Source of the DNA: Bacillota bacterium
Lineage (GTDB): Bacteria > Bacillota > Limnochordia > Darwinibacteriales > DTU012
Reading direction: 5' to 3'
Assembly (NCBI GenBank): GCA_012521185.1
Contig: JAAYMV010000111.1
Coordinates: 1-32,236, forward strand
DNA: 32,236 nt
Shown: one piece after another, positions 1 to 26,522 of the stretch
Layout: each line of letters begins with the position of its first letter
How positions within the stretch are numbered: position 1 is the stretch's first letter
Notes under the pieces: generated by a model
Told to the model about the DNA's origin: nothing
The model's database searches: none
What the model saw: only the letters and a program-made list of their open reading frames with translations
Program-made: the position numbers and the translations under genes

Positions 1-492
1 TGGTTCTTCAGGATTTTGCGGATAAATTTTTCCAACATTAATTACATCCGCTGGACTAAAGAAGTAGCCTACACCCCAATTAATAGTTTGCTTGCCACCA
101 CGGAAGAAGATTTTATCTTGATAATTAAAATCCGAAAAAAGTTCACTTAAATAGATACCTTGCCCATAGTTAACTTGCACATTGGCAAATACCCGATAAT
201 TTGGATCTGGACGTGCATCTAAGAATAGGTTACCTGATAAATTAGTTCTAAAGCGATTACTATACTTATCGTCTTTAAAGTTCCAATCGGAAGATACAGA
301 CAAGTTATATTTTCCGCCAACTTTTACTCCTTCATTAATTAACATAGTCTCAGCTAATGAAGGCCGCTCTTCTTCCTCGGCAACTTCGAACAATAAATCA
401 GAACCAAATAACTCATTAAAATCAAAAGCCATTGCTGGACTAACCCATAATAAACATAAAAGTAATACCGACACTAGCTGCTTAATCTTCAT
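1..492 (-). CDS. Outer-membrane-type beta-barrel protein (partial, 3' end outside window)
   Basis: The reading frame is open from an ATG at 492 to the window edge, giving 164 codons and no stop, so the C-terminus is missing. A signal peptide is clear (MKIKQLVSVLLLLCLLWVSP, then AMA, cleaved before FDFNELF). The mature part alternates polar and hydrophobic residues, with aromatic-rich strands such as NYRVFANVQVNYGQG and the segment RGGKQTINWGVGYFFSPADV. This pattern is typical of porin-like outer-membrane barrels. A strong SD (AAGAGGTGA) precedes the ATG. It is the last visible gene of a five-gene operon, 10 bases after the LolA-like gene, so it is a plausible client or partner of that export system. 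The family name cannot be settled from this fragment. A barrel implies an outer membrane, which is unusual for a spore-forming Firmicute. Confidence 0.7.
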   Translation of the reverse strand, partial: MKIKQLVSVLLLCLLWVSPAMAFDFNELFGSDLLFEVAEEEERPSLAETMLINEGVKVGGKYNLSVSSDWNFKDDKYSNRFRTNLSGNLFLDARPDPNYRVFANVQVNYGQGIYLSELFSDFNYQDKIFFRGGKQTINWGVGYFFSPADVINVGKIYPQNPEEP

Positions 493-502
493 GATTCACC
501 TC

Positions 503-1276
503 TTACCGATTTACTCTTTCGATATACGCTTTGGTAAAGACATTATCAGGGATTGGACTTATTGATAATTCAGATAAAATAACCTGAGTTTTACTGCCTT
601 TTACTAACTCATCTACAAAAATCATTTGCTGCGGAATAATAAAGGAGCCGATAGTCGCATATTTTGGAAATAGAGAAGTACGCATTAAACGTTTAGTTAA
701 ACTGTATTCTTCAGCCATTAGCACTAAAGGCGTTTCTGTTTGGGTAATCCAAAGTTTGATGTAAGGATAAGTCACCGAATTACTGGTAGCCTCTAATTCA
801 ACAATATAAACTTTGTGTCCGCCAAGACTACCTTCTTCATAACCAGCCACTTCGTAATTACTAGAATAGGTCCACTGGGTAAAGTCAGAATTTCTTACAT
901 CAGACCCCTGAAAACTTTCCTTTAGAGAATTGTGAGCGAATTGACGACTGGATGGATCGTAAAACCATAAATTATCCCCTTCTAATAGGTAACCTTGCCC
1001 TTTTTGCACACTTGGTTCTTGAATTAAAAGCAAAAACTTCTCTTCACGGTCACGCCGAAACTGGTGAACAACCATCTTTTCAATCCCTTTCTCGAGATCC
1101 TCCACCACCATCGTCATCACCGATGAAAAGTCATATTCACCAAAATTAGTATTGGTATCGATTTTTTTTAAGATAGCATAAATATCAACATCGTCTTTAG
1201 CCTGTACGGCACCAAAGACGCTAAAAATCATTATTAAGCATAATGATATTATCCGTAGTCGTTGATTGAATTTCAT
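503..1276 (-). CDS. LolA-like outer membrane lipoprotein-sorting protein
   Basis: This 257-aa secreted protein has a signal peptide ending near VQA-KDDVD at residues 26-27. The mature part matches the LolA-like family of outer-membrane lipoprotein-sorting proteins. Visible features are a strand ending in HQFRRDREEKFLLLIQEP, the motif GQGYLLEGDNLWFYDPSSRQ, the motif FQGSDVRNSDFT, and a closing FTKAYIERVNR. Such proteins fold as an incomplete beta-barrel that shields a lipid or acyl chain while carrying cargo across the periplasm. The gene lies between a permease (10-base gap) and the beta-barrel gene (10-base gap), so it is probably the periplasmic carrier of the system. SD GGAGG precedes the ATG. 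The cargo is unknown: family membership is well supported, but lipoprotein sorting itself is inferred. Confidence 0.8.
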   Translation of the reverse strand: MKFNQRLRIISLCLIMIFSVFGAVQAKDDVDIYAILKKIDTNTNFGEYDFSSVMTMVVEDLEKGIEKMVVHQFRRDREEKFLLLIQEPSVQKGQGYLLEGDNLWFYDPSSRQFAHNSLKESFQGSDVRNSDFTQWTYSSNYEVAGYEEGSLGGHKVYIVELEATSNSVTYPYIKLWITQTETPLVLMAEEYSLTKRLMRTSLFPKYATIGSFIIPQQMIFVDELVKGSKTQVILSELSISPIPDNVFTKAYIERVNR

Positions 1277-1286
1277 GATTTCCTCC

Positions 1287-2588
1287 TTAATGATAAGACC
1301 CTAATGCCTTAATTGGTGATAATCTAGCTGCAGCTCTAGCAGGTAAATATGCTGCCAATAAACTCATTACCGCTAAAATAGCAAAAGTTAAACAAACAGT
1401 ACCGACACTAACCTGAAAAGTTAGATATCCATTATTTAAAAAGAACTGAAGACCAGTTACTTGGGAAAAAGAAACGAAGGATAAGACCACCATGACTAGA
1501 GAGGCACCTACTAAACCTGCTAAACCTCCGAACAGTCCTAGAAACAATGCTTCGAGTAAAAATATAGCTTTCACGGTATTTTGCTGCATGCCAAAAGCTC
1601 GCATTGTTCCAATTTCCTTTACCCTTTCGATTAAAACCATTCTAAAGGTGTTTGTAATACCCACCATAATAATCAGTAAGAGTACAAGGAAAATTCCTAA
1701 ACTAATCGCATCAATCACAGTTACCACAGCCTCAACTGGTTCCATTATATCGTTGAGGGTTAAAATCGAATATTTAACCCCTTCCCAAGGTTGAGCTAAT
1801 TCTTCTACTGCCTCAAATTGGATTCCAAAAATTGCTGATTGTTCTTCCAATCCCTTTGGTTCTCCGATTAATACATGACTAAACTTCTCAGCCACTTGGT
1901 CAAGCCGATCAACATCTTTGAGAAAGACATTCACCAATTGATAACCGTCTGACATTAAGCCCAATAAATAATTTAAGTAACCTTTATCAGCATAAGCAGC
2001 TGATATTCCGAAACTTGCTTGATCTTCAATTAAAGCTGCTACTATAAATTCGCCAACATTTTGTTGACCACTAATCGTTTCCATTTTTACCAAAATAATT
2101 TCTCCAGCTTCAATCCCTAGCCTTTGACCTAAAGGAGCTGGAATCACAATGGCGTTTTCTTGATCTAACTTAGTCAAATCACCACTAATAACTGTTAAAC
2201 TATCTAATAACTTGGTTTCTTCCTGAAAATCAACACCATAAATCAATTGCATTCCCTGTTTAGAACCGAAGATGAAGGTACCAATGGTCTGTGTCCTTTT
2301 AGTAACTCCTTCTATTTCATCGGAATAAGTAAGTAACAAATCAGATAGCTGCTGTTCATCATGAATCTGATTAATTACTTCTCCATCATCATTTAATTGT
2401 TTACCGGAAATAAAAATGTGTCCACCTAAAGCATGGGAAAAATTTACTCGAACATTTTCGACCATGCCAGCTGTAAATGAGTTTAAAACTGTAATTACCA
2501 GCATACCAAAAGCAATTGCTCCCGCCAAAAGTATGCTACGTTTCTTCTGTCTAGCAATATTCCGCAATGCTATTCGGACCGTTACCAA
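1287..2588 (-). CDS. FtsX/MacB-type ABC transporter permease (second permease)
   Basis: The 433-aa protein has the MacB/LolC-E layout. One N-terminal transmembrane helix (SILLAGAIAFGMLVITVLNS) is followed by an extracytoplasmic domain of about 240 residues. Three C-terminal helices form the FtsX domain, with the conserved stretch VLIERVKEIGTMRAFGMQQN. It lacks ATPase motifs and must pair with the ATPase at 4071-4793. I place the start at a TTG at 2588, because GAGGTG at 2595-2600 sits six bases upstream. The GTG at 2597 would overlap that SD. It follows the first permease almost without a gap. Two non-identical permeases plus one ATPase recall LolCDE rather than homodimeric MacB. It could instead be an efflux or antibiotic-resistance-type exporter, but the LolA-like and barrel neighbours argue for envelope export. 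Confidence 0.85.
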   Translation of the reverse strand: MVTVRIALRNIARQKKRSILLAGAIAFGMLVITVLNSFTAGMVENVRVNFSHALGGHIFISGKQLNDDGEVINQIHDEQQLSDLLLTYSDEIEGVTKRTQTIGTFIFGSKQGMQLIYGVDFQEETKLLDSLTVISGDLTKLDQENAIVIPAPLGQRLGIEAGEIILVKMETISGQQNVGEFIVAALIEDQASFGISAAYADKGYLNYLLGLMSDGYQLVNVFLKDVDRLDQVAEKFSHVLIGEPKGLEEQSAIFGIQFEAVEELAQPWEGVKYSILTLNDIMEPVEAVVTVIDAISLGIFLVLLLIIMVGITNTFRMVLIERVKEIGTMRAFGMQQNTVKAIFLLEALFLGLFGGLAGLVGASLVMVVLSFVSFSQVTGLQFFLNNGYLTFQVSVGTVCLTFAILAVMSLLAAYLPARAAARLSPIKALGSYH

Positions 2589-2598
2589 TTGCACCACC

Positions 2599-4074
2599 TC
2601 ATTGACTTTGCATAGCCTTTACTGGCTCTGTTTTCATTACAATTGAGGTTGGATATAAACTAGAAACAACCCCAACAACTAATACTATAATAAACGACAT
2701 GACCACTGACTCTAAGGATAAACCTGGTTTTAAAACCGGTCCGCCAAAAATAATCTCAAAAAATAGGTTTGGAGCTTTAATTCCTGTAATATTTAAAACT
2801 AATAAAATCAAACTGCCGGCTATTATTCCAATACCACCAAATACACCGGAGATTAATAAGGTTTCCCATAAAATCATGGAGCGGACGAATGTTTTCTGAG
2901 CACCAATAGCCCGCATTGTACCAATTTCACTCATTCGTTCTGTGACTGAAATGACTAAGGTATTCATAATAATTATCACAGCAACTATAGCAATTAGAAA
3001 AACAATAATGTTAAAAACAAGTTTTACGCCATAAGCCATCTCAGCTACTACTCCAGCGGCTTCTAACCAATCACTGGCTTCAGCATCAATATTGTTAACC
3101 GCAAAAAATTCATCTAATTCCTTTAATGCCCGCTTTACCATTCGTTCATCGGTTAATCTAACTAACAAAAAATGCCAGGAATGTGATTCTTCCTCTTCCT
3201 GCACTGGAGTATCCTCTGAACTAGCAAAAATGTCTAATAGTGAATCTTCGTTATAGCTTTCTGCAGTAGCTTCAATATCTACCAAGATGTTACCAAAATC
3301 ACTAAATAGACTGTCAAAATCTAACTCACCTAAGAAAACTTGCTCTTCCTCAGTGAGTTTAGCCGGAGATACATATCCTACATTCATACCACTTAAAGCA
3401 CGCATATTAGTGGCATCAACTAAGGATATTAAGTCTAGTTGAGCATTTGATTGTTTGAACTCAAAGATTCCTTTAACCTCAACTTCACGAATCTTCATGC
3501 CGCCTGTTGGGGTTACGCCTGTTAACAACAGCTTCTCTCCTGGCTGAATTAAGCGACCTAAATCCCGTTCCATATGCTCAGCCACTAAGTTGTTTAGTAC
3601 AATCCCTTCTTCACCTTTAGCTAAAAAGCTGCCTCGTATTAGCTCAATATTGTCAGGAAACATCTGTAGATAAGATTCGGGATCGATTCCAAATAATTGC
3701 ATAGCACCCTGAACTTCGTTAATACTTGCTAAGGCGACCCCAGAGATTTGCGGATTAATAAGTTCTACATAAGGTAAAGACTCTAAAAAACTCACAATTT
3801 CTTCGTAATCATGTAATGTAGGGATGTTTTGCTCTAAGATAGTAAGATCTTGAAAGCCAAATAAGGTTAAGTTTCCCTGATGCTTACCGCTAATCATAAT
3901 ATGCCCTGTAAAGTTCTTTATGTAAGAGCGTTCAATACCAGCTGTAGCTGAATCCATCAATGAGTTACCTACAATTAATACTGTTATACCAACTGCAATT
4001 AAAGTTCCGATAATTAAAGTTTTAGTGCGATGTTCTTTTAAATTTCTCCAGGCAATTTTTAACAACACACTCAT
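2599..4074 (-). CDS. FtsX/MacB-type ABC transporter permease (first permease)
   Basis: This is a 491-aa permease with an N-terminal helix (TLIIGTLIAVGITVLIVGNS). A large extracytoplasmic domain runs to about residue 350 and includes an acidic stretch around DTPVQEEEESHSW. Three C-terminal helices follow, with the FtsX signature VTERMSEIGTMRAIGAQK. The start ATG overlaps the end of the ATPase gene by four bases (ATGA), so translation is probably coupled. The protein is about 60 residues longer than its partner at 1287-2588, mostly in the periplasmic domain. The two permeases are therefore likely to have different periplasmic jobs, as LolC and LolE do. In the Lol model such a permease extracts lipidated cargo from the inner membrane and passes it to a LolA-type carrier. 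That role is inferred from the neighbours. Confidence 0.87.
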   Translation of the reverse strand: MSVLLKIAWRNLKEHRTKTLIIGTLIAVGITVLIVGNSLMDSATAGIERSYIKNFTGHIMISGKHQGNLTLFGFQDLTILEQNIPTLHDYEEIVSFLESLPYVELINPQISGVALASINEVQGAMQLFGIDPESYLQMFPDNIELIRGSFLAKGEEGIVLNNLVAEHMERDLGRLIQPGEKLLLTGVTPTGGMKIREVEVKGIFEFKQSNAQLDLISLVDATNMRALSGMNVGYVSPAKLTEEEQVFLGELDFDSLFSDFGNILVDIEATAESYNEDSLLDIFASSEDTPVQEEEESHSWHFLLVRLTDERMVKRALKELDEFFAVNNIDAEASDWLEAAGVVAEMAYGVKLVFNIIVFLIAIVAVIIIMNTLVISVTERMSEIGTMRAIGAQKTFVRSMILWETLLISGVFGGIGIIAGSLILLVLNITGIKAPNLFFEIIFGGPVLKPGLSLESVVMSFIIVLVVGVVSSLYPTSIVMKTEPVKAMQSQ

Positions 4075-4793
4075 TGACTGACCCCTGCCGTTTCATTATA
4101 TTCTGCCTTATGGGTTTCTTCTACAATTCTGCCGTCTAATAAGCGAATAATGTGATCGGCAATTCCAACAATTGTAGAATCATGAGTGGAAAAGATGAAT
4201 GTGGTATTTAATTCCGCATTCATTTTTTTCATTAACTCAATAATGGTCTGCCCAGTTTTCGAATCTAAATTGGCCGTAGGTTCATCAGCTAAGACTATTT
4301 GAGGTTTAGTAACTAACGCACGAGCAATAGCTACCCTTTGCCGCTGACCACCTGATAATTCATTGGGCTTATGCTTAATAAAGTTGGTTAATTCTACTGC
4401 TTCGACTAGGTATTCGATCCATTCCTCGCGTTCTCGCTTCGGCATCCGATTTTTCCCTAATAACAGTGGAAATTCTATATTTTCATAAACATTTAAAACT
4501 GGAATTAAGTTAAAGGATTGAAAGATAAAACCTAAAACCTCATGCCTTAAAGTAGTTAGCTGTTTATCATTCAAACCTGAAGTACTTTGGCCAGCAATAC
4601 TTACTATTCCATCAGTCGGTTGATCAATACAACCGATCATATTAAGAATCGTTGATTTACCCGAACCTGAAGGGCCAATTAGTGAAATAAAATCACCTTT
4701 TTTAATATCAAAAGTGACACCCTTAACAGCATGCACTTGAGTTTTTCCTAACTCATACGTTTTCTTTACATCTTTCAACTGGACAATTGGCAT
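4071..4793 (-). CDS. LolD/MacB-type ABC transporter ATP-binding protein
   Basis: The 240-aa nucleotide-binding protein has all ABC motifs. Walker A is GPSGSGKST (residues 40-48), the Q-loop lies in FIFQSFNL, the signature is LSGGQRQRVAIARAL (from 146), Walker B is IVLADEPTANLD (from 166), and the H-loop is in STHD. The overall pattern (IGCIDQPTDGIVSIAG and the NLDSKTG after Walker B) is that of the LolD/MacB/FtsE branch, which powers mechanotransmission-type transporters rather than classical import or export. It heads the operon ATPase, permease, permease, LolA-like, beta-barrel, with gaps of -4, 10 (1 if the GTG at 2597 is used), 10 and 10 bases. SD GGGAGTG precedes the ATG. An extended -10 promoter lies just upstream, but no terminator separates it from the M28-like gene, so read-through is possible. 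Confidence 0.93.
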   Translation of the reverse strand: MPIVQLKDVKKTYELGKTQVHAVKGVTFDIKKGDFISLIGPSGSGKSTILNMIGCIDQPTDGIVSIAGQSTSGLNDKQLTTLRHEVLGFIFQSFNLIPVLNVYENIEFPLLLGKNRMPKREREEWIEYLVEAVELTNFIKHKPNELSGGQRQRVAIARALVTKPQIVLADEPTANLDSKTGQTIIELMKKMNAELNTTFIFSTHDSTIVGIADHIIRLLDGRIVEETHKAEYNETAGVSQ

Positions 4794-4866: not shown

Positions 4867-7137
4867 TTAATTAAAAACATAGGTTTTGCTAAGAATCGTT
4901 GTATCTGTTATTGGCGTTGGAGCCGGTATCAAATATTCTGGTCTTTGAATAAAATTGTCTCCAAAAAAGTCTGGCAATCCGTATAATTGACTTAAAATAG
5001 TAATACTAAAATTACTATCAATTGCTGTGGGTACTACTAAATTAATTCCTTCAGCAGGAATGTTATAGTAACGAAATACCGGCCAGTGTTCCTCCCAGGC
5101 AACCATATTACCAGCAATTTCTACCTGTTCTGTTACTAATTCCGGCTTGATATGCACGATCAAGCTAACATGCTCCTGTAGGGGTTTAACATGAAGATGT
5201 ATTTCCCTAACCTCTTCCCGAATCACTTCTCCTATTAAGTTGACAGCAACAGGCGACTCATTCCATTTTGGAGCTGACCCTTTTATTATCGGAACATATT
5301 CATAAGGAATTAAATGCTGAAGGTTATCTGCAGTAAATCCTGCCGGGAAAAACTGTTCCGTAAACTCATCCAAATCTAAATCAATACTTACCCAGTAAGC
5401 TTGTTCCTGATCTAAATCAGCATAATAGAAAATGCTATTCATTCCCGGTTGAGTCGCAGTCACTCCTGATTGATTATATACCATAACTATACTAAAAAGC
5501 AAAAGCACTAAAGATATTGCTGGTAAAATCCGAACATTCAAATCTTTGATTTCCTTAATTAAAGGCAGTAATAAGCCTAGAGCATAAACAAATAAAAGCA
5601 TTAGAATGCCACTAGAACTTAATCCTAAAATTACAAAAACTTGTTTAAGTAAAACTGGCCAAAGGGTGATAACTGGAACAAAACTCAATAGAATGGCAAT
5701 CGCCCTGATTATCCAAGAAGGCTCATCCCACTGAAGATATAATAAGGTACCAAGTAGACTGAAAAGGTATGGCCAAATAAAGAGATAACTTGTGCCTGGT
5801 AAGAACAAGGAAATAAAAATCGTAATAACTAACCAAACAATTTGTGTTCCAAAAATTAAGTCTAACTCTTCTAATTTATTAAATGCCCATGAATAGAGTA
5901 GGATAAATAAAGTAGCTGTTAAAGAGCTAAGACCAACCAAATACCAGATGCCATTATTAGGTTGTACATATTTATATAATGGATGATTTGGAACTAGCCA
6001 ATTTCCTACATAACTCATCAGTACGCCGCTAAATAATCCTATGAGAGCAAAAATCAAAATGCCATAGAGGATTCCCTTTAGATTAAAGCGGTAATTCTTC
6101 ATGCCTTGCCAAACTACAATACCAAACATAATTATAGTTATCGTGATCAAGTTTGCTATCCAAGTAATTGGATAATGAACTAACCTTAAACCAAACAAGT
6201 CAAAATAAATCTGATCTATTTGAGAAATTTCTTGCAGCTCAAGATTACCAAAATGTTTAACTAATTGTAGCAGATTATTTCCCTGTTGCTGAATGCTAGT
6301 TAAATCGATATTCTCCAAATTATCAAATGCTGTATGGTAATAAGTAGGCTTGTCCAAATATGCTAAATTAAGACCTGGTATCTGTGCCTGATTAAAGACA
6401 GTAAAGCTGTGATCATGATTCATTAATCGATACAATTCATGAATAAAAGAATTTCCTAATGGCTGACTAACTGCCTGAGCATACTGGGAAATTAGCCATC
6501 CATTTCTTCGGCTAGTACCAAATAACACTGAAGCACCACTTGTGCCTCTGGCTTCAGCATTCAATACTAAACCAACCTCTTCCATCCAAGGATGTTGTTC
6601 AGCAAAGGCTAAGGCTCCTAAAGCGCCAATTTCACCTGCGTCAGCAAATAAAATAATCAAGTCATTTTTTAAAGGTGCTTCCGCTAAAACTACTCTCACT
6701 ATTTCCAGCACGCTAGCTACTGCTGCTTTATTTGCATTCGCACCTGGGGATGTAGGCATAGAATCATAATTAGCAACTAGTAAAATTGCTTTACTACTTT
6801 CACTACCGGGAATACGTGTCACAACATTATTGATAACTGCACCTGTCCGCCAATATGGATTTATTGCATAAGCTGATTGTATTTCTGGATTAAGCCCTAA
6901 TTCTGATAATACATTCACCAGATAATCTCTAACCTGCTTATGTTGTTCGCTGCCAACTGGTGTTGGTTCAACAGCAATTTCAGCCAAATGATCAAGTACT
7001 TGCTTGGTAACAAATCCATCCTCTGTTTGTGATATTGCCTGTGGCTGACGATAACCATACATCGTTACACCGGTTATGATTATAAAAACAACTAAGGATA
7101 TAATAATGATTCTTATTTTTTCCCGCTTCATATTCAT
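4867..7137 (-). CDS. Membrane-bound M28-family peptidase-like protein, probable pseudoenzyme
   Basis: This 756-aa protein has an N-terminal signal-anchor helix (residues 8-28) and an M28 zinc-peptidase-like domain (about 45-300). Around eight transmembrane helices follow (about 320-550), then a 190-residue extracytoplasmic tail rich in beta strands. This layout resembles the ERMP1/Pff1 type of M28 protein. The fold is recognisable from NYDSMPTSPGAN, LNAEARGTSG and YYHTAFDN. The catalytic set is broken, however: the first metal-ligand His of HYDS is Asn123, the bridging Asp of GAxD is Ala135, and the general-base Glu of the DGEE motif is Gly168. Glu169, Glu195 and His268 remain. The start is the ATG at 7137, five bases after GGAGG; an upstream TTG at 7161 has no SD. 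It has its own promoter and lies directly upstream of the Lol-like operon. A binding or chaperone role is possible; its function is unknown. Confidence 0.8.
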   Translation of the reverse strand: MNMKREKIRIIIISLVVFIIITGVTMYGYRQPQAISQTEDGFVTKQVLDHLAEIAVEPTPVGSEQHKQVRDYLVNVLSELGLNPEIQSAYAINPYWRTGAVINNVVTRIPGSESSKAILLVANYDSMPTSPGANANKAAVASVLEIVRVVLAEAPLKNDLIILFADAGEIGALGALAFAEQHPWMEEVGLVLNAEARGTSGASVLFGTSRRNGWLISQYAQAVSQPLGNSFIHELYRLMNHDHSFTVFNQAQIPGLNLAYLDKPTYYHTAFDNLENIDLTSIQQQGNNLLQLVKHFGNLELQEISQIDQIYFDLFGLRLVHYPITWIANLITITIIMFGIVVWQGMKNYRFNLKGILYGILIFALIGLFSGVLMSYVGNWLVPNHPLYKYVQPNNGIWYLVGLSSLTATLFILLYSWAFNKLEELDLIFGTQIVWLVITIFISLFLPGTSYLFIWPYLFSLLGTLLYLQWDEPSWIIRAIAILLSFVPVITLWPVLLKQVFVILGLSSSGILMLLFVYALGLLLPLIKEIKDLNVRILPAISLVLLLFSIVMVYNQSGVTATQPGMNSIFYYADLDQEQAYWVSIDLDLDEFTEQFFPAGFTADNLQHLIPYEYVPIIKGSAPKWNESPVAVNLIGEVIREEVREIHLHVKPLQEHVSLIVHIKPELVTEQVEIAGNMVAWEEHWPVFRYYNIPAEGINLVVPTAIDSNFSITILSQLYGLPDFFGDNFIQRPEYLIPAPTPITDTTILSKTYVFN

Positions 7138-7177
7138 GACATCCTCCAGATCTAATATCAAAAAACATTATATTTTC

Positions 7178-7334: not shown

Positions 7335-9257
7335 TTGTCTTTTACAAAAAGTATTAAAACCAGACTAATATCGCTATTTTTAATTATTGGCCTAATTCCA
7401 GCGATAACTGTGAGTTTAATTTTTTTTAATCGCTTAGTTTCTAATGAACGTGAAGTGGTTGCTCGTGATAGCCATACTGTGGCTACTACCATTAGAAATA
7501 ATTTAGAATTAGACCGCCAATACAGAGAAGAACAAGCAAGTATTCTTGCTGCTAATGATGCTATCGCATTACCTGTTACTATTATGAGTCAATCTGATAA
7601 AAACTCAAGTATTTGGCGCTCCAATACACTTATGAATGGAATTAACCGCGTTGCAGAAGATTATAAAGATGATTTTGTAGACATATTTGTAGCAGTTTAT
7701 GAAGACATAGTTTACAATCCACAAGGAACCTTTTTTGACTATTCTAGCGCAATCGAAGAAATCAATGACATAATCAATTCTAATACTGTCGGATGGTCAC
7801 CTTGGATATGGTCTGATGCACTTGAAACCTACGTTATATTCACCATTGCCCCAATTCGTAATGTAGCCGGCGATGCTGTCGGAGTTATAGGCTTAGGTAC
7901 AGCTTACGACGAAATTCATAATAAGTTAATGATTGAAAATCAAAACGAAAGTCTTGAATATGATGTTTACCTAGTCGACGCCAATGGAACCCTACAAAGT
8001 AATCCTAAAGATCCCAACTTATCAATGTTAACAAGCAAAATTAATACCAAAGCCGTAGAAATGTTCTCAGCAGCATTAGCCAATAACGAGCTAGATTTCG
8101 CCGATAGTACAGAATACATAGGTTATCATGGTGAACCTGTTCTCGGCTATGTTAGTGCGGTTATGTTAGGTGATGAGCCAGCTGCTGTAGTCATTGAAGC
8201 TTTAGCTGATCAAGCTTTTGCAGGTGTAAAAAGATCCCAAAGTCTAGTTATCGTTATTATCATTATAACTGCAATTGTAATCAGTGTTACAAGCTTTTTC
8301 ATCGCTCAAGGTATTATTAAACCAATCCTTGAATTAGTCACCTTCACTGAAAAAGCAGCTAACGGTGATTTATCAGTCCAAGTGTCAACAAATCGTGAGG
8401 ATGAATTCGGTAGACTATTTAATGCCTTTAATAAGATGGCTGATAATTTACGTGAGATGATTTCCTCAATTACTAGTGCAATCCATAATGCATCTTCTGC
8501 TAGTGAAGAACTTTCTGCCGCTAGTGAGGAAAACTCAGCTACGATTGAAGAAATTGTAGCTGCCATTCAAACCTATGCTGAAGCTATTAAAAACGTTAGT
8601 CAAAACGCAAATTCAATGGCTGCCCAAGCCCAGGAAGTTGTTAAACGTGCAGAAGCAGGTAAAGCGCAAATGGCACACTCCAATGAAACCATGCTCAATA
8701 TATTACGGTCATCACAAGAATCACAAACTAAAATTAATGATTTACAACAAGCAACTAACCAAATCGATCAAGTTATCAATATTATATCCGATGTTGCTGA
8801 ACAAACCAATCTTTTAGCACTAAATGCTGCTATTGAAGCTGCCAGAGCTGGCGAACATGGTCGCGGCTTTGCTGTAGTTGCTGACGAAGTAAGAAAATTA
8901 GCTGAACAAACTCAGGAATCAGTTGGCGTAATTATGAACAGCATCGACCATCTAAGAACCGGTACAGCTCAAGTAGTAGATGTAATTCAAGTCAACAATG
9001 AGCAAATCGAAGATGGAGCTGAAATATTAAGAAGAGCCCAAACAGACTTTGACCAAATCGAGGAAAGTATTTCAGCTACAGTTAAACTGATAAATGAAGT
9101 AGCTGATTCTGGTCATCGACTGGACATTGGAATGGCCGAAATGGCAGCTTCTGCTGAAGAACAAGCAGCATCTATCGTTCAAATTACTCAAAATGCTGAG
9201 TCTGTTGCTAGAATGGCAGAAGAGATGTCAAAGTTAGTTAAAAGATTTAAAGTTTAA
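7335..9257 (+). CDS. Methyl-accepting chemotaxis protein with Cache sensor
   Basis: The 640-aa chemoreceptor has one transmembrane helix at residues 11-31. A double-Cache-like extracytoplasmic sensor spans about 35-300 (key stretches [17 protein letters not shown] and [18 protein letters not shown]). A second helix covers 304-327, a HAMP domain about 328-380, and the cytoplasmic signalling bundle runs to the end. The conserved hairpin tip is present ([20 protein letters not shown], then [17 protein letters not shown]), so it should bind CheA/CheW. The start is TTG at 7335, eight bases after AAGGAGGG; no in-frame ATG has comparable support. It is transcribed alone between a divergent promoter and a terminator. 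The ligand cannot be read from sequence, though Cache domains commonly sense amino acids or carboxylates. The adjacent peptide-type transporter is on the opposite strand. Its presence implies a motile organism. Confidence 0.95.
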
Positions 9258-9283
9258 TTCTCAATCACCATAGACAGCATGAA

Positions 9284-9322
9284 AAAAAGCTACTTAGAAA
9301 GTTTTCTAAGTAGCTTTTTATT
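9284..9322. terminator. Bidirectional terminator between chemoreceptor and oppF
   Basis: A perfect stem (AAAGCTACTTAGAAA with TTTCTAAGTAGCTTT, small loop) is flanked by an A-tract on the left and a T-tract on the right. It can terminate both converging genes. Confidence 0.85.
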
Positions 9323-9335
9323 ATTCTTTTAAACT

Positions 9336-10367
9336 CTAACCTACACCTTCTAAAGACAATTCTGTTGCATGGTGACAAGCAACCTGGTGAGTAACTCCCT
9401 CTTCCCCAGTATCAATATCTTTCAACTCAGGTATCTCTTCCCAACATAACTTGCTTGCGAATTCGCAGCGTGGCGCAAACATACAACCTTTAGACTGTTT
9501 CATTGAATCAGAGATTTCACCTTTAATGGATTTGGCTTTCCATTCTGTATGAGGATCTGCATCAGGTACAGCTGATAACAATACGCTTGTATACGGATGT
9601 TTTGGATACGTATATAAGCTATCCACATCAGCTAACTCAACAATTTTACCTAGATACATTACCGCTACTTGGTCACACAAATAGCGAACTACACTTAAAT
9701 CATGACCAATAAATAAATAAGAAAGACCTAGTTGTTCTTGTAAATCCAACAGCAAGTTCATTACCTGAGCTTGAACAGATACGTCAAGTGCTGAAACAGC
9801 TTCATCCGCTACGATAAAGGATGGATTTAAAGCTAGGGCGCGAGCCACGCCAATTCGTTGACGCTGACCACCACTAAACGAGTGGGGGAAACGTCTACTA
9901 TATTCTGGACGTAAACCTACTAACTCTAATAACTCAGCAACCCGTTCTTCACACTCTTTTCTGCTATATCCGTGAGCTCTTAACGGTTCAGCAACGATAT
10001 CTAATACAGGCATCCGTGGATTCAGGGATGAATAAGGATCTTGAAAGACCATTTGCATATCAGCACGAGCTTGTTTTAACCCATGTTTATCTAGTTTTGT
10101 TACATCTACAACACCATCTCTGGTTCTAAACAATACTTCTCCTGCGGTTGGCTCAATTGCTCGCAATATACTACGGGCAGCAGTTGTTTTACCACAACCA
10201 CTTTCTCCAACCAAACCTAGAGTGGTACCCTTTTTAATGGAAAAGCTAATATCATCTACTGCTTTTACGTAACCAGTCACTTGGCGTCTTAAAAAACCAG
10301 ATTCTATTGGGAAGTATTTTTTTAAGCCCTTCACCTGCAATATAACATCATTAGGCATTTGCAGCAT
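9336..10367 (-). CDS. oppF: Oligopeptide-type ABC transporter ATP-binding protein OppF
   Basis: The 343-aa ATPase of the peptide/nickel importer family has Walker A GESGCGKTT, signature FSGGQRQRIGVARAL and Walker B FIVADEAVSALD. Its C-terminal oligopeptide extension (CMFAPRCEFASKLCWEE, then VACHH) carries four cysteines. Related Dpp/Opp ATPases use these cysteines for an iron-sulfur cluster; whether one forms here is unknown. It opens KGLKKYFPIESGFLRRQVTG, the usual OppF/DppF N-terminus, which separates it from its OppD partner. The ATG at 10367 follows GAGG by nine bases, and the gene overlaps oppD by 17 bases. It is the last gene of the operon and shares a bidirectional terminator with the chemoreceptor. 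The substrate is set by the binding protein, so peptide transport is not proven. Confidence 0.92.
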   Translation of the reverse strand: MLQMPNDVILQVKGLKKYFPIESGFLRRQVTGYVKAVDDISFSIKKGTTLGLVGESGCGKTTAARSILRAIEPTAGEVLFRTRDGVVDVTKLDKHGLKQARADMQMVFQDPYSSLNPRMPVLDIVAEPLRAHGYSRKECEERVAELLELVGLRPEYSRRFPHSFSGGQRQRIGVARALALNPSFIVADEAVSALDVSVQAQVMNLLLDLQEQLGLSYLFIGHDLSVVRYLCDQVAVMYLGKIVELADVDSLYTYPKHPYTSVLLSAVPDADPHTEWKAKSIKGEISDSMKQSKGCMFAPRCEFASKLCWEEIPELKDIDTGEEGVTHQVACHHATELSLEGVG

Positions 10368-11385
10368 CTTCTTTTACCTCCCCACCATTGAATAAGAAGC
10401 AGCTAACTTCATGTTCATCCTCTACCAGTACCCGATCAGGCAATTCCTTAAAGCATTGTTCTTTAGCATACGGACAGCGAGCAGCAAATCCACAGCCAAC
10501 AGGAACAACATAAGTGCTAGGAACAGTACCTGGAATTGAACTAACTCTTTCACCACGTTTACCCTTTAACTTAGGAATAGAGTTCAACAATCCTTTGGTA
10601 TAAGGATGAAGCGGGTTATCAAAAATATCTACGACTTTACCACGTTCAACAACTCTACCTAAATACATAATATAGATATAATCAACCATGTGAGCTACTA
10701 CGCCTAAGTCATGCGTAATTAAGATCATTGACAAGTTAAACTCATTCTGCATGTTTTGTATTAGTTTTAATACTTGTGCTTGTAAAGTTACGTCTAACGC
10801 AGTTGTTGGTTCGTCTGCAATTAGTAATCTTGGGTTACGTGCTAAAGCCATAGCAATCATTACCCTTTGTCTCATTCCACCACTAAACTGGAATGGATAT
10901 TCGTCAACTCGCCGGGATGGGTTTGGAATACCAACTAAGTCTAATAACTCAATTGACCGTTCCCTAGCTTCTTGTTTTGACATGTTTTGGAACAAAATCA
11001 TCGCTTCTGATAACTGATTATTAATAGTGTGAACAGGGCTTAGTGAAGACATTGGTTCTTGGAAAATCATTGAAATGTCTCGGCCTCTTAAGCGACGAAT
11101 CTCTTTTCCTTCAGCTGGTAAAGCTAAAGTATCAGTAACTTTACCATTTCGTTCTTTATATAGAATCTGTCCACTGAAAGTAGCGTTTTTCGGTAGCAAT
11201 CTAGTGATTGAATAAGCACTCACTGTCTTACCGCAACCACTTTCACCAACTACTCCGATAGAACACCCTTCAGGTACTGAATAATTAACGCCGTTTACCG
11301 CATTAACTATTCCTTCTTCTGTTTTGAACTTAACGACTAAATCTCTTATTTCTAACAGATTATTACTGTTACTCATCTTATTCAT
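10351..11385 (-). CDS. oppD: Oligopeptide-type ABC transporter ATP-binding protein OppD
   Basis: This 344-aa ATPase has Walker A GESGCGKTV, Walker B LLIADEPTTALDVT and the signature FSGGMRQRVMIAMAL. FSGGMRQR is typical of OppD/DppD, where OppF has FSGGQRQR. The C-terminal extension has the cysteine pattern GCGFAARCPYAKEQC with a later C in VSCF, the counterpart of the OppF cluster. I take the ATG at 11385, with AGG and a GGGGGTG purine tract upstream; the TTG at 11409 has no SD, and an ATG at 11376 is also possible. It sits between oppC (a gap of 27 bases) and oppF (a 17-base overlap), so the two ATPases are probably translated together and act as a heterodimer under OppBC. Confidence 0.92.
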   Translation of the reverse strand: MNKMSNSNNLLEIRDLVVKFKTEEGIVNAVNGVNYSVPEGCSIGVVGESGCGKTVSAYSITRLLPKNATFSGQILYKERNGKVTDTLALPAEGKEIRRLRGRDISMIFQEPMSSLSPVHTINNQLSEAMILFQNMSKQEARERSIELLDLVGIPNPSRRVDEYPFQFSGGMRQRVMIAMALARNPRLLIADEPTTALDVTLQAQVLKLIQNMQNEFNLSMILITHDLGVVAHMVDYIYIMYLGRVVERGKVVDIFDNPLHPYTKGLLNSIPKLKGKRGERVSSIPGTVPSTYVVPVGCGFAARCPYAKEQCFKELPDRVLVEDEHEVSCFLFNGGEVKEDAANA

Positions 11386-11412
11386 TTTCCTACACCCCCA
11401 TTGTCCCAATCT

Positions 11413-12552
11413 TTACTGACCATAGGGATCTGCAGCATCACGCAGACCATCTCCTAAGAAGTTGAAGACCAGTACGAAAATTATCACAAATAAACCAGGA
11501 ATTAATAACCATGGTGCCATCACTATCGAATGCACATTTTGTGCTTGTTGCAACAATGTGCCCCAGCTAATTACAGGTGGACGAAGTCCGATCCCCAAAA
11601 AACTAAGTGATGTTTCAGAAAGAATCATATTTGGGATGGAAAGCGTAATACTTGCGATAATGTGACTCATAAATGATGGGATTAAGTGAGTCAAGATTAT
11701 CTTAGGCTCACTAGTTCCTGCAAGTCGCGCAGCAACTACAAAATCCTCATTTTTGATTGAAAGTACTAAACCTCTAACTTGCCGTCCCAAGGATGTCCAG
11801 CCGATTAGGGACAAAATAACGGTAATTCCCAGATAAACTTTGACTGGTGACCAATCTGGAGGTAAAGCAGCACTGAGAGCCATCCAAAGAGGAATAGTTG
11901 GGAATGAACGTAATACTTCAATAACCCGTTGGATAATTCCATCTACTATACCACCATAATAGCCAGAAATTCCACCAAATATTAAGCCAAGCACTAAACT
12001 TAAGAATACCCCTACCAGACCGATAGACATGGAAATTCGCGAACCATATATAATCCTGGTAAACATGTCCCGACCTAATCGGTCTGTACCAAACAAGAAA
12101 ATCGCACCTTCATCCACACCAAATAAGTGAATATTAGTAGTAATGCCAAAAAGTTTATATTCCTCGCCTCTTACAAAAAAGCGAATTGGTAATCGTCTGC
12201 TAGTATCTTCAACATAGATCCGTTGAAAAGTTGTAAAATCTACTTCTTGCTTAATTGGGTGAATAAATGGGCGGAAAGAGAAACCATTCTCATCAATAAA
12301 TCTAATCTTTGTTGGAGGCGCAAGGGCAGCATTACGATGCCGTGTGTCTGGATCATATGGAGCTACGAATGGAGCGAAGATTGCAACTAAATACATGAAT
12401 ATAATAATAATCCCTGCTGCCATAGCAACACGATGTTTTTTAAACTTTAACCACATTAACTGCCATTGAGTTGCATAAAATATCTTCTCCTCAGCAGTGG
12501 TTGTTTCCTCATTGGGCTGAATAACTTCAGGAGTTGTTACATTTGCATTCAT
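11413..12552 (-). CDS. oppC: Oligopeptide-type ABC transporter permease OppC
   Basis: The 379-aa inner-membrane permease starts with a cytoplasmic leader, then a first helix (MAAGIIIIFMYLVAIFAPFV). The FGTDRLGRDMFTRIIYGSRI motif follows, and then the BPD core, with AARLAGTSEPKIILTHLIPS as the EAA loop that docks on the ATPases. It is longer than the roughly 300 residues usual for the family because about 80 residues (near 75-155, including FIDENGFSFRPFIHPIK) are inserted between helix 1 and the FGTD motif. Similar long forms occur in binding-protein-dependent permeases of other diderm anaerobes; that comparison is from memory. SD GGGGAGG lies eight bases before the ATG. The inserted segment would face the periplasm, where it could contact the binding protein. 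Confidence 0.92.
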   Translation of the reverse strand: MNANVTTPEVIQPNEETTTAEEKIFYATQWQLMWLKFKKHRVAMAAGIIIIFMYLVAIFAPFVAPYDPDTRHRNAALAPPTKIRFIDENGFSFRPFIHPIKQEVDFTTFQRIYVEDTSRRLPIRFFVRGEEYKLFGITTNIHLFGVDEGAIFLFGTDRLGRDMFTRIIYGSRISMSIGLVGVFLSLVLGLIFGGISGYYGGIVDGIIQRVIEVLRSFPTIPLWMALSAALPPDWSPVKVYLGITVILSLIGWTSLGRQVRGLVLSIKNEDFVVAARLAGTSEPKIILTHLIPSFMSHIIASITLSIPNMILSETSLSFLGIGLRPPVISWGTLLQQAQNVHSIVMAPWLLIPGLFVIIFVLVFNFLGDGLRDAADPYGQ

Positions 12553-12566
12553 CCGATAAACCTCCC

Positions 12567-13553
12567 CTACTCATAACGAATACGCGGATCGACAAGTACC
12601 AATAAAATATCCGATATCAGCGTACCGATAATAGTTAAACTTGCTAATAATAGAGTAAAACTGCCTGCCAAATACATATCTTGGCTCTGTAAAGCCCTTA
12701 ACAATAATGGACCGGCTGTAGGTAAACCTAACACTACAGCTGTAACAGCTTCTCCTGAAATCATTTGTGGCAAAGTCCAACCTACTGTACTAATAAACGG
12801 TATAATTGCTAAACGTACCGGATATTTAAATAATAAACGAATAGTACCAATCCCTTTGGAACGAGCTGCAACAACATATGGCTTACTTAATTCATCCAAC
12901 AAGTTGTTCCGCAACACACGAATTAAACCAGCTGTTCCAGAAGTACCAATTACAACCATTGGAACCCAAATATGCTCTAACATATCTTTAAATTTCGCCC
13001 AGCTCCAAGGTGCCATAACATACTCTGGCGAAAACAATCCTCCAACATTTGTACCAAAATACTTTAAGGAAATATACATTAAAATTAGTGCAAGCATAAA
13101 GTTAGGGATTGATAAACCAAGAAAACCAAGTAAGGTTAAGAAATAGTCCCCAATCGTATACTTATTAACTGCACTGTAAATAGCAATTGGGAAAGCAACT
13201 ATCCAAGAAAACAGTAATGAAGAAACTGATACTGCTAAGGTTAGCGCTAATCTTTCCCAGATTAACAGACTAACAGGCTTTTCCCATTCGAAAGAATAAC
13301 CAAAATCGCCTCTGGTTATAATTCCTTTCATCCAATTGAAATATTGGATGTGTGCCGGAGCATCAAGGGAATAGCGAGCCTTAATTGCTTCAATTAATTC
13401 ATGGTTAATTTGTTCTCCTGCTGCATGCATTTGTGCAATCATGGTATGAAGATAACTACCTGGAGGTAGTTGAATGATAATGAATGAAATAATTGATATC
13501 ATAATTAACATTGGGATCATTTGTAGCAATCGTCTACTAATAAATCTAAGCAT
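12567..13553 (-). CDS. oppB: Oligopeptide-type ABC transporter permease OppB
   Basis: The 328-aa permease begins MLRFISRRLLQMIPMLIMIS, the typical OppB/DppB first helix. It continues with the periplasmic DFGYSFEWEKPVS segment and the core, ending with IISDILLVLVDPRIRYE, the classic C-terminus of this family. The EAA loop is VVAARSKGIGTIRLLFKYPV. I chose the ATG at 13553, which has GGAGG ending eight bases upstream. An ATG at 13568 would lie upstream of that SD and adds only MEGES. It is the second gene of the operon, separated from oppA by about 110 bases that hold a stem-loop. It forms the channel with OppC. Confidence 0.93.
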   Translation of the reverse strand: MLRFISRRLLQMIPMLIMISIISFIIIQLPPGSYLHTMIAQMHAAGEQINHELIEAIKARYSLDAPAHIQYFNWMKGIITRGDFGYSFEWEKPVSLLIWERLALTLAVSVSSLLFSWIVAFPIAIYSAVNKYTIGDYFLTLLGFLGLSIPNFMLALILMYISLKYFGTNVGGLFSPEYVMAPWSWAKFKDMLEHIWVPMVVIGTSGTAGLIRVLRNNLLDELSKPYVVAARSKGIGTIRLLFKYPVRLAIIPFISTVGWTLPQMISGEAVTAVVLGLPTAGPLLLRALQSQDMYLAGSFTLLLASLTIIGTLISDILLVLVDPRIRYE

Positions 13554-13595
13554 TGACTCCCCCTCCATCTAGAGGCTAAATATTTAAAACATAAG

Positions 13596-13625
13596 AGAGA
13601 AGCCAACGTGCTTGCTGGCTTCTCT
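13596..13625 (-). promoter_or_regulatory. Intercistronic stem-loop between oppA and oppB
   Basis: A perfect 10-bp stem (AGAGAAGCCA with TGGCTTCTCT) encloses a 10-base loop. On the minus strand no clean T-run follows, so it is more likely an RNA-stabilising or partial-attenuation hairpin than a full terminator. It would allow more binding protein than permease to be made. Confidence 0.6.
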
Positions 13626-13665
13626 GCTTTGATTTTAAAGCCAAAATACAAACCTGAGATTTAAA

Positions 13666-15543
13666 TTATCTATCCCAGAACCATTGGAATGGTCTATAGA
13701 TACCTGGGTTACCAGGGTGGCTGTGAGCTGCTGGAGCTGGTACGTTTCTTAAATCTTTGTTAGCGAATGACAAGTTGAAATGCATGCCAACAGTACCAAT
13801 TGTCCAGAAGTTATCAGCCCAAATGTCAATAATTTCTCTCATTAAAGCTGTTCTTACTTCTTCATCATCGGTAGAAGGTGCAATGTCAGTGTAAATTTCA
13901 TAAATACGCTTAACATCTGCTGGTGGCTCAACGCCATCTCTACCGTTAGTTGTTAACCAAGTTTCCCAATGTGGAGCTACTACATAAGTGATTTGGTGAC
14001 CTGTTTGTAGTAGTGGGATAATTGGGTCTGCAAAGTCTGCAAAACCGATTTGATGTTGGTTACCTTCACGTTTTGATTCGTATAAAGCACGCTCCATTAA
14101 GTTGATAACTGTACGGATTCCTACAGCTTCCCAGTAATCTTTAATTAATTGACCACCGTCAACTTGCGCCCAGTGATGTGTACTTCCGTCAACAATTAAA
14201 GTTAATCTTTGGCCGTTAGGCAATAAGCGGAAGCCTTCTTCATCACGAGCAGTCAATCCTAATTCATCTAGCATTTTGTTAGCTAAAGCAGGATTGTAAT
14301 CTGTATACATCTTGTCAGCTTCTTCACTGTAAGCTGGATGCAATGGGTGTAAGTGACCATGACCGATAGCTCCTAAGCCGTTTATGAGCAATTCGTTCAT
14401 TTCTTCTCTGTCAATAGCATAGGAAAGTGCAATCCTAAAGTCTTTGTTGCGTAATAATTTCGCGATTTCTGGATCTGCATCATAGTTTTGGTTGAAATGC
14501 ATTACTAGTAATCCAGGAGTTCCACCTTCAGTTTGGATTACTCGATAGTTACCACTGTCTTGGCTAGCCAAGAATAATGGTAAATCGCTGTACATAGTCC
14601 ATAAGTGACGAGTTTGATAGTCGATTTGACCACCAATTAGTTTAAGTTTCATAATTTCTACGTCACCAACTAGTTCACGATGGTAAGCATCGATATATGG
14701 AAGTTGGTTACCAGCTGTGTCAACTTTGAAGTAGTATGGGTTTCTTTCGGAGATTTTAACTGGAGCATCGAAACCAGTTGTTAGAACCCAAGCATCCATA
14801 GTTGGCATACCAACAGCTTTTTGACCAGAACTTAAACCAGCTTTAAGTCTGAATAACTCACTCCACAATGTTACACCATGTTCTCTAGCTAATCTGTTAA
14901 GAGTTGCTTCATCAGTATATTTAATGTGAAATTGTTGTAAATAATGTTTTGGTAAATAAGTTTCATGACCTGTAGCCATCCAGTTTACAAAACCGCCTTT
15001 TGGTTCTTTAAAACGGAATTCTACAGTTAAGTCGTCAATCTTAACTACTTTCATTGGCTCGCCGCCAGATTGGAAGTTAAGGTTAACTGCTGGTGTAAGC
15101 TCAGTATTTAACTGAACATCTTCCCACCAGAATAAGATATCATCCGTTGTAAATGGATGTCCATCAGACCATTTTAAACCTTCTCTTAATTTGAAGGTAA
15201 TCACTTTACCGTCTTCAGAGACGCTCCAGCTTTCTGCAAGGTTAGGATGGATTTCATAGAACATTTCATCATAGTATACTAAAGGCTCATGCACTAATCT
15301 TTGATAACCTGTAGAATCACCAGGTCCGGTATGAGTACTACGAATAATGCCACCATATTTACCGATTTTTTCATAAGGTTCAATAACTAAAGGATTAACT
15401 GGTAAGCGCTCTTCTACAGGTGGTAGAAGACCCGCTTTTACTTGTTCTGCTAATAATGGAGACTCATTGTATTTTGCTAGCGCAGTTCCGCTAACTAATA
15501 CAATCATTAGTGCCACTAACAAAAGTTTGTAACTATTTTTCAC
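13666..15543 (-). CDS. oppA: Family 5 extracellular solute-binding protein (OppA-type), no lipobox
   Basis: The 625-aa substrate-binding protein belongs to the peptide/nickel/oligosaccharide class (SBP family 5). Visible hallmarks are EPYEKIGKYGGIIR near the N-terminus, WSVSEDGKVITFKLREGLKW, the VEFRFKEP block, and DFRIALSYAIDREEMNELL. The signal peptide ends ALA-KYNESP and contains no cysteine lipobox. The mature protein would therefore be soluble, as in bacteria with a periplasm, instead of membrane-tethered as in monoderm Firmicutes. I take the GTG at 15543, seven bases after GGGAGG; this starts VKNSYKLLLV and gives a normal signal peptide. The longer reading to 15606 has no SD. It is the promoter-proximal gene of the operon. 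The ligand is unknown, since members bind peptides, oligosaccharides or nickel complexes. Confidence 0.9.
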   Translation of the reverse strand: MKNSYKLLLVALMIVLVSGTALAKYNESPLLAEQVKAGLLPPVEERLPVNPLVIEPYEKIGKYGGIIRSTHTGPGDSTGYQRLVHEPLVYYDEMFYEIHPNLAESWSVSEDGKVITFKLREGLKWSDGHPFTTDDILFWWEDVQLNTELTPAVNLNFQSGGEPMKVVKIDDLTVEFRFKEPKGGFVNWMATGHETYLPKHYLQQFHIKYTDEATLNRLAREHGVTLWSELFRLKAGLSSGQKAVGMPTMDAWVLTTGFDAPVKISERNPYYFKVDTAGNQLPYIDAYHRELVGDVEIMKLKLIGGQIDYQTRHLWTMYSDLPLFLASQDSGNYRVIQTEGGTPGLLVMHFNQNYDADPEIAKLLRNKDFRIALSYAIDREEMNELLINGLGAIGHGHLHPLHPAYSEEADKMYTDYNPALANKMLDELGLTARDEEGFRLLPNGQRLTLIVDGSTHHWAQVDGGQLIKDYWEAVGIRTVINLMERALYESKREGNQHQIGFADFADPIIPLLQTGHQITYVVAPHWETWLTTNGRDGVEPPADVKRIYEIYTDIAPSTDDEEVRTALMREIIDIWADNFWTIGTVGMHFNLSFANKDLRNVPAPAAHSHPGNPGIYRPFQWFWDR

Positions 15544-15652
15544 ATGAATTCCTCCCTGTTGTTTCTTGATAAGGCAAAAACAAGTATTTTTAAGAAGCCA
15601 CCACACCCTTCATTTTAATTTATAAAATGTTAATTATAAAATTCTACGGCCT

Positions 15653-26493: not shown

Positions 26494-26522
26494 AAGCAAG
26501 GGTTGTTCACCCTTGCTTTTTT
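26492..26522. terminator. Bidirectional terminator between ackA and the deacetylase gene
   Basis: AAAAGCAAGGGT, loop TGTTC, ACCCTTGCTTTTTT forms a perfect 12-bp stem. It spans both stop codons (ackA TAA and the opposing TAA at 26521). Confidence 0.87.

Follow-up and report, generated by a model that had tools for sequence, protein, structure and literature searches.

The first 4793 bases of a 32,236-base contig from a member of the Limnochordia (Bacillota) carry, on the minus strand, five contiguous genes that probably specify a dedicated five-component export line across the cell envelope. This contig, C123 (GenBank JAAYMV010000111.1, assembly GCA_012521185.1), was analysed in its entirety and is called the window below; the genome to which it belongs comprises 2.11 Mb in 126 contigs and is 98% complete. 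The five genes, here called the cassette, encode an ATP-binding cassette (ABC) ATPase, two FtsX/MacB-type permeases, a LolA-superfamily carrier and the start of an outer-membrane β-barrel:

4071..4793, minus strand: ABC ATPase of the LolD/MacB class; Pfam ABC_tran 116.6 bits, NCBIfam LolD 236.1 bits (below cut-off); place and order kept in related loci

2599..4074, minus strand: first FtsX/MacB-type permease (FtsX1); FtsX 68.5 bits, MacB_PCD 37 bits

1287..2597, minus strand: second, distinct FtsX/MacB-type permease (FtsX2); FtsX 58.6 bits, MacB_PCD 33.8 bits

503..1276, minus strand: LolA-superfamily carrier; LolA_like PF17131 138.2 bits (cut-off 30); predicted local distance difference test (pLDDT) of the model 91.3

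1..492, minus strand: N-terminal 164 residues of a predicted outer-membrane β-barrel, DUF1302-like; DUF1302 15.3 bits (cut-off 23.2); the gene leaves the contig

All five genes had been named in a first-pass annotation made from the sequence alone, and Pfam matches were obtained for the ATPase, the permeases and the carrier, while the barrel was recognized through the model of a relative. In the list of open reading frames, the ATPase and first permease genes overlap by 4 bases and are followed by gaps of 1, 10 and 10 bases. The barrel gene is broken at the contig end. Its 3' part, which the annotation had proposed to look for, opens contig C110 (G000:C110:2-727) as a frame of 241 residues that ends in NVSLGSGSF. 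Matched over positions 2-712 of C110, it corresponds to residues 176–427 of a relative's barrel (42% identity), and the window part to residues 5–170 (51%). The next gene on C110, response-regulator-like by eye, lies on the opposite strand, and the five-gene set therefore appears to end with the barrel.

The conservation of the set was examined by scanning named genomes with the carrier alignment. The best 80 of 100 relatives were used, which overlap with the 23 neighbourhoods fetched separately, and phylum groups were assigned by hand from the record titles: 30 loci are Bacillota-type, including one whose title reads just 'bacterium', 46 are Spirochaetota, three are Deinococcota-titled and one is Smithella. 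It was found that the barrel gene directly follows the carrier gene in 76 of the 80 loci, one of the others ending at a contig end and three being without a barrel. By group, the counts are 30/30 for Bacillota, 43/46 for Spirochaetota (one contig end, two without), 2/3 for the Deinococcota-titled loci and 1/1 for Smithella. Upstream of the carrier, the ABC genes stand in order in 63 loci and two permeases only in three, with a contig end in the remaining 14. The carrier is likewise followed by the barrel in all 23 fetched neighbourhoods (L032–L054), which comprise 22 close carriers and that of the diverged genome G002. Since the same genes recur in the same order across several phyla, the set goes beyond a chance assembly. 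Pairwise distances in the five gene trees, built from 54 complete loci, correlate with r values of 0.73–0.94. The Bacillota split off cleanly in the permease trees (support 0.89 and 0.96) and also in the barrel tree, there with a support of 0.01; the split takes in two other members in the carrier tree and four in the ATPase tree. Two single loci are worth recording here. The Smithella sp. SCADC record (L113) has a cassette and neighbours nearly identical to those of Rectinema subterraneum (L112) and is probably a wrongly binned spirochaete contig. At L121 and L123, the ABC set and the carrier are kept and a peptidase-like gene (by eye) occupies the barrel position, which makes them natural barrel-less cases.

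The distribution of the set is patchy. With E < 1e-80 as the definition of a close carrier orthologue, and 72 genomes of the class and eight others of the phylum searched, a hand tally gave 32 of the 72 class genomes, namely 25 of the 36 in the window's order and seven of the 36 outside it. Within the window's family, one of nine genomes has a close orthologue, and the complete set also occurs, in diverged form, in a second genome, G002 (L054). In the class of the Rectinema genome, which we take to be Spirochaetia, a close carrier (here E ≤ 1e-30) was detected in 88 of 148 genomes, the neighbourhoods having been read for only part of these. The commonest neighbour of the Bacillota loci, seen in 16 of them, immediately follows the barrel and is encoded on the other strand. 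Among the Spirochaetota- and Smithella-titled loci that have a barrel and room behind it, 23 of 39 have an OmpR-type response regulator and a histidine kinase directly after the barrel (L090, L097, L111, L112 and 19 others, with Pfam confirmation on two pairs); no such pair was found in the 23 Bacillota loci with room. Taken together, the patchy spread (one of nine family genomes with a close set and one with a diverged set) and the regulators beside relatives speak for a role that would be conditional rather than housekeeping.

The barrel was characterized through 50 aligned sequences. The model of one full-length relative (L064) reached a pLDDT of 88.5 and a predicted TM-score (pTM) of 0.83; it consists mostly of strand and loop from residue 56 on, with two short helices. 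DSSP assigned 20 strand elements, of which two are short, a count that is not taken as the strand number of the barrel. Among solved structures, MOMP, OprD/Occ porins, chitoporin and AlgE match best, in tied rows with Z-scores of 19–20 over about 300 residues. The fold predicted for this relative of the 1–492 protein is thus a barrel, in favour of the first-pass annotation. At a threshold of E ≤ 0.01, DUF1302 (PF06980) was matched by 23 of the 50 barrels, the best with 5.8e-06, and Omp85 by none; the first alignment member scored 16.1 bits against DUF1302. A comparison of the barrel profile with the sequences of the PDB returned only two chance matches to gingipain (E 0.22 and 0.23); the family ties of the barrel rest on profile–profile and fold comparison. 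Conservation peaks at residues 136–160 of the model, a stretch that takes in strand 5 and the beginning of the long loop behind it; in porins, the constriction loop L3 lies at the corresponding place, the long loop after strand 5.

The N-terminal part of the barrels contains a hydrophobic stretch (median maximum 12-residue hydropathy 2.88), which is missing from the first 60 residues in at least one of the 50, start codons having been set mechanically. None of the 50 has a lipobox match within its first 60 residues, and the C-terminal residue is F in 47, W in two and A in one. A predicted barrel fold, a C-terminal aromatic residue, the lack of a lipobox and a BamA gene in the genome are together the features of a client of the β-barrel assembly machinery (BAM). 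With no lipobox detected and an F or W at the end of 49 of the 50 chains, the barrel is expected to arrive in the outer membrane through BAM. The first-pass annotation had read the operon as a line that delivers the barrel itself, a view for which co-encoding speaks and nothing else; against it stand, besides these two features, the BamA, two OmpH-like genes above cut-off and a SurA-like gene under cut-off in the genome. The barrel as cargo was therefore rejected, and we attach almost no credence to it. From these sequence features, it is more likely that the barrel serves as the acceptor or exit, the outer-membrane terminus of the line.

The carrier belongs to the LolA superfamily, as had been proposed, and its model places it in a particular branch. 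It superimposes on 4z48 (a DUF1329-family protein and the top match), 3buu (NE2245), 3bk5 and 9tp6 (P. gingivalis LolA3) with Z-scores of 25.5–26.1 and root-mean-square deviations of 2.1–2.8 over 221–223 residues. The scores did not exceed 13.2 against classical LolA and 15.3 against LolB. Because of this difference, the predicted fold is assigned to the DUF1329/NE2245/LolA3 branch, distinct from classical LolA, and the sequence agrees (phmmer E 1.1e-23 against 3buu). PF17131 is the only Pfam family matched by the window carrier (E ≤ 0.5), and neither a second PF17131 match nor any match to the classical LolA family PF03548 was found in its genome. A second LolA-fold gene that could act as a LolB-type acceptor is not present in the cassette, the search for LolB having covered these genes and not the rest of the genome. 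The N-terminus resembles a Sec signal (by eye, and a helix in the model); a lipobox-like match was seen in one of 23 carriers (L084) and interpreted as part of the signal peptide.

The ATPase and the permeases are relatives of the Lol and MacB machinery that fall outside the Lol equivalogs. The ATPase scored 236.1 bits against a cut-off of 307.75 for LolD (TIGR02211), and the permeases 77.0 and 77.8 bits against a cut-off of 362.45 for LolCE (TIGR02212). Profiles of 13 sequences each were compared with solved chains: that of FtsX1 matched LolF, LolE, MacB and YtrF, chiefly in its C-terminal part, and that of FtsX2 matched YtrF, LolF, MacB and LolE in the C-terminal part, the scores being similar across all four. 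In LolCDE and MacB, ATP used in the cytoplasm drives action at the outer leaflet and in the periplasm, and MacB, LolE and LolF are exporters or extractors.

Based on these relationships, a mechanism can be proposed. Together, the two FtsX-type permeases and their ATPase would form a transporter of the LolCDE/MacB class (type VII). Powered by ATP, it would lift a hydrophobic or amphiphilic molecule out of the inner membrane's outer leaflet. The cargo may be a lipid, a glycolipid or a lipid-like small molecule; a single lipoprotein is less likely. LolA-fold proteins hold acyl chains, and the LolA3/DUF1329-type carrier would take the acyl part of the cargo into its cavity and cross the periplasm. 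It would then dock on the co-encoded barrel, which would fill the place of LolB in the Lol pathway and hand the cargo on into the outer membrane or across it. In P. putida, a DUF1302 and a DUF1329 protein were predicted by co-folding to form a complex, according to the portion of PMC10866462 that was available.

The carrier and the barrel also occur as a pair behind other engines. Among 299 genomes of the phylum, 57 have a PF17131 match at E ≤ 1e-8. The neighbourhoods of 28 other LolA-like genes of the class and phylum, chosen from the better matches rather than at random, were read and 25 were resolved; L057, L058 and L059 were dropped since the picking of open reading frames stayed unresolved. 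In all 25, the next downstream gene encodes a protein of 322–468 residues, with F as the C-terminal residue in 22 and Y in one. Upstream of the carrier lies a gene for more than 600 residues (12 loci) or one of permease size (seven); in three loci, the carrier domain ends a chain of more than 1,000 residues, and three are unclear. Engines were assigned to the resistance–nodulation–division (RND) or the ABC type according to how large the gene before the carrier is, with Pfam applied to five large engines, all MMPL (one with PF17131 in the same chain), and to one permease pair, which is FtsX/MacB_PCD. The profiles of the downstream proteins in the first three of these upstream classes (22 loci, with L158, L167 and L169 left aside as having no clear engine) matched the cassette barrel profile with probabilities of 99.4, 99.3 and 98.2%. 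Four downstream proteins were searched singly against Pfam: L164 matched DUF1302 above cut-off, and L160, L162 and L060 gave no match. Since related pairs follow MMPL or FtsX/MacB engines and the barrel profiles match, the LolA-like carrier and the DUF1302-like barrel are, as judged from gene order and profiles, a putative module that accepts either an ABC or an MMPL/RND engine.

An upstream gene for 150–260 residues is present in 11 of the 22 engine-assigned loci, and the ten that were scanned comprise eight TetR, one MarR and one methyltransferase. In three loci, the engine and the carrier are fused: L055:1697-4765, L056:5958-9050 and L062:7568-10633 encode chains of 1021–1030 residues with a LolA-like C-terminus, that of L055 matching both MMPL and PF17131, and each has a TetR gene before it and a barrel-like gene after it. 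In P. gingivalis, genes for TetR, MMPL, LolA-like and hypothetical proteins with consecutive tags top the list of those raised under low hemin in the part of PMC10470040 consulted, and when iron or hemin is limiting, operons of P. gingivalis and Prevotella that encode MMPL and a LolA-like protein are strongly raised (excerpts of PMC10434189 and PMC10470040).

Several points weigh against a dedicated export line. What was observed comprises the genes, their order and its conservation, two predicted folds and barrels in which no lipobox was found, whereas complex formation, direction, docking and cargo are inferred. At three of the 80 loci (L121, L123 and L131), no barrel could be detected beside the carrier. 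The agreement of the five trees was measured among the cassette genes. The barrel model was built on L064 and not on the window protein, and its Foldseek TM-scores are 0.35–0.58 among the 50 matches listed; because of these scores and the tied solved matches, the predicted barrel is claimed to be porin-like and nothing narrower. Neither is the direction of transport fixed by the sequence, and P. putida needs its DUF1302/DUF1329 pair for growth on Tween 20 (PMC10866462, as excerpted), which fits uptake too. An inward line, in which the barrel would take up a lipid or another hydrophobic nutrient for import by the carrier and the ABC transporter, could draw further support from Opp-type uptake genes some kilobases away in the window, L033, L045 and L046. 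However, the relatives of the permeases (MacB, LolE and LolF) are established as exporting or extracting, and import is considered very improbable.

It is rather unlikely that the cassette is the general Lol lipoprotein-sorting pathway of the organism, with the barrel replacing an absent LolB. Its carrier is the sole PF17131 match in a genome where classical LolA was not found, the LolA/LolCE/LolD cluster of the Halanaerobiales was interpreted as a Lol system (PMC5007114, available section), and the authors of the Borrelia study raised the possibility that an Omp85 barrel acts as outer-membrane insertase (PMC13078400, available text). However, close orthologues in only 25 of the order's 36 genomes and, apart from a diverged set, in one of nine of the family fit an essential function poorly, and related carrier–barrel pairs use MMPL/RND engines. 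In addition, the carrier falls in the LolA3 branch, where P. gingivalis LolA3 binds LolB only very weakly (PMC13103446) and deletion of the F. johnsoniae namesake had no phenotype (PMC11885536). The first-pass annotation had also preferred a dedicated unit to general LolABCDE machinery, and this part of it has held: carrier and barrel are adjacent in 76 of 80 loci, the LolD and LolCE cut-offs are unmet and PF03548 was not found. A MacB/Bce-type pump of the envelope-stress or antimicrobial response, exporting toxic amphiphiles on demand, overlaps with the export line and differs mainly in purpose. The regulator–kinase pair behind 23 of 39 spirochaete-type barrels, the TetR genes before the engine (eight of ten scanned in the wider class and phylum) and the iron- or hemin-regulated operons of P. 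gingivalis and Prevotella, as given in the same excerpts, would suit such a pump. Yet the pair occurs in none of the 23 Bacillota loci with room, and beside the window's set there is just the one opposite-strand response-regulator-like gene on C110, so that a stress pump is judged decidedly unlikely.

Genes for outer-membrane assembly are clustered on contig C24 (L063:7393-15943). BamA, in which three POTRA stretches were matched, lies there together with two OmpH-like genes above cut-off and LptF/G (337 bits); OstA/LptD is just above cut-off, and LptA and SurA are under it. Of the genes for which the first-pass annotation had suggested a search, BamA was thus confirmed and LptD found marginally, but the lipid A gene LpxC was not found in the window's genome. 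The genome therefore presents an Lpt-type line beside BamA without lipid A synthesis. None of the order's 36 genomes, the window's included, yielded an LpxC match, while the gene is present in 31 of the 36 other genomes of the class. All seven class genomes outside the order with a close carrier have LpxC, so that the cassette is not tied to the loss of lipopolysaccharide (LPS), and carrier and LpxC status both follow phylogeny within the class. LpxC was also detected in three of 48 genomes reached via 49 Spirochaetota- and Deinococcota-titled loci; this says nothing about the cassette, since none of the 148 genomes of Rectinema's class was found to have it. Some link between the cassette and lipid A loss may still exist. 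It is unlikely that the cassette is a main supply line of outer-membrane lipid or surface glycolipid in lipid A-less membranes, with the barrel as a lipid-inserting channel; if it were, a one-operon, ATP-driven route with a soluble carrier would take over part of the role of LPS export.

The remainder of the window contains genes of the spore type, as had been annotated:

29963-31150: SpoIIP, 162.9 bits, above the cut-off of 123.15

28260-29327: YtvI, 270.9 bits, above the cut-off of 198.15

15836-16633: CwlD-like, 162.6 bits, under the cut-off of 221.55, related

27334-28131: SleB-like, 156.3 bits, under the cut-off of 236.5, related

26521-27306: PdaB-like, 168.7 bits, under the cut-off of 237.4, related

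Spo0A is encoded elsewhere in the genome. Neither of the two outcomes named as refuting the first-pass annotation, a 1–492 protein without a predicted barrel fold or a genome without BamA, was observed, and its description of the cassette as an export operon of diderm type within a spore-forming organism was upheld. A diderm envelope and a Gram-negative spore-former within the Limnochordia have been published previously (PMC11456536, as far as the excerpt goes). Directly before BamA, L063:5439-7226 encodes a 595-residue protein that matches SpoIVB-type S55 with 38.5 bits (Pfam cut-off 25) and lies far under the NCBIfam SpoIVB cut-off. Next to the cassette, 73 bases upstream of the ATPase and on the same strand, window 4867-7161 encodes an M28 peptidase domain and, after it, a long hydrophobic part, which was unmatched in the 32 neighbourhoods compared. 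At window 7335-15606 (uptake genes 9336-15606), some kilobases from the cassette, genes for an ABC transporter of the Opp type are found, as also in L033, L045 and L046; these sets share a low identity of 24–40%, and a chemoreceptor-like gene was seen in the window, L033 and L046.

The significance of the cassette lies in the partner that it offers to the carrier. LolA-like carriers persist in diderms that lack LolB, and for the LolA3/DUF1329 branch no outer-membrane partner has been established. Gene order names one, the DUF1302-like barrel directly after the carrier, in both Bacillota and Spirochaetota, and within the Bacillota the pair sits behind an ABC or an MMPL/RND engine. Scattered annotations as 'outer membrane lipoprotein-sorting protein' thereby become a testable carrier–barrel module, and the five-gene line provides a handle on how lipophilic cargo may reach an outer membrane without lipid A.

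Among the matches listed in a literature search that left subscription papers and preprints outside, no published report was found of the five-gene ABC–carrier–DUF1302 set, of its conservation in Bacillota and Spirochaetota or of the engine swap. Several known systems are similar in part. The cassette shares with E. coli LolABCDE a LolD-like ATPase, two LolC/E-like permeases and a LolA-fold carrier; it differs in having a barrel at the place of LolB, in LolD and LolCE models under cut-off and in a carrier nearer to DUF1329/LolA3. Its permeases are relatives of the MacB type, as in MacAB-TolC. However, neither a MacA adaptor nor a TolC-type duct is among the five genes, and the ATPase is a separate gene, whereas in MacB the ATPase is fused with the permease. 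The Halanaerobiales cluster, also from diderm Firmicutes, combines an ATPase, two permeases and a LolA homologue; compared by description only, it comes with no mention of a barrel in section 14 of PMC5007114, the part consulted. In Borrelia, BBJ23-29 cluster a LolE-like ABC transporter, a LolA-like carrier and an outer-membrane barrel, but the barrel is of the Omp85 type, there is one permease (a homodimer) and two tetratricopeptide repeat (TPR) proteins are added; the authors found this seven-gene cluster only in Borrelia (PMC13078400, available text). The AmeABCD system of Castellaniella defragrans, as described in the excerpt of PMC6394551, consists of an RND HAE3 transporter, AmeB (DUF1329/LolA superfamily), the DUF1302 barrel AmeA and AmeC, and its deletion lowered monoterpene tolerance and raised Nile Red accumulation. 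Both systems place a carrier of the same branch next to a DUF1302-like barrel and co-encode them with an inner-membrane transporter. They differ in the engine, which in the cassette is an ABC transporter of the LolCDE/MacB class, in the lack of a sixth, AmeC-like gene and in the phyla concerned. The cassette is best filed as an ABC-driven variant of the AmeABCD-like arrangement.

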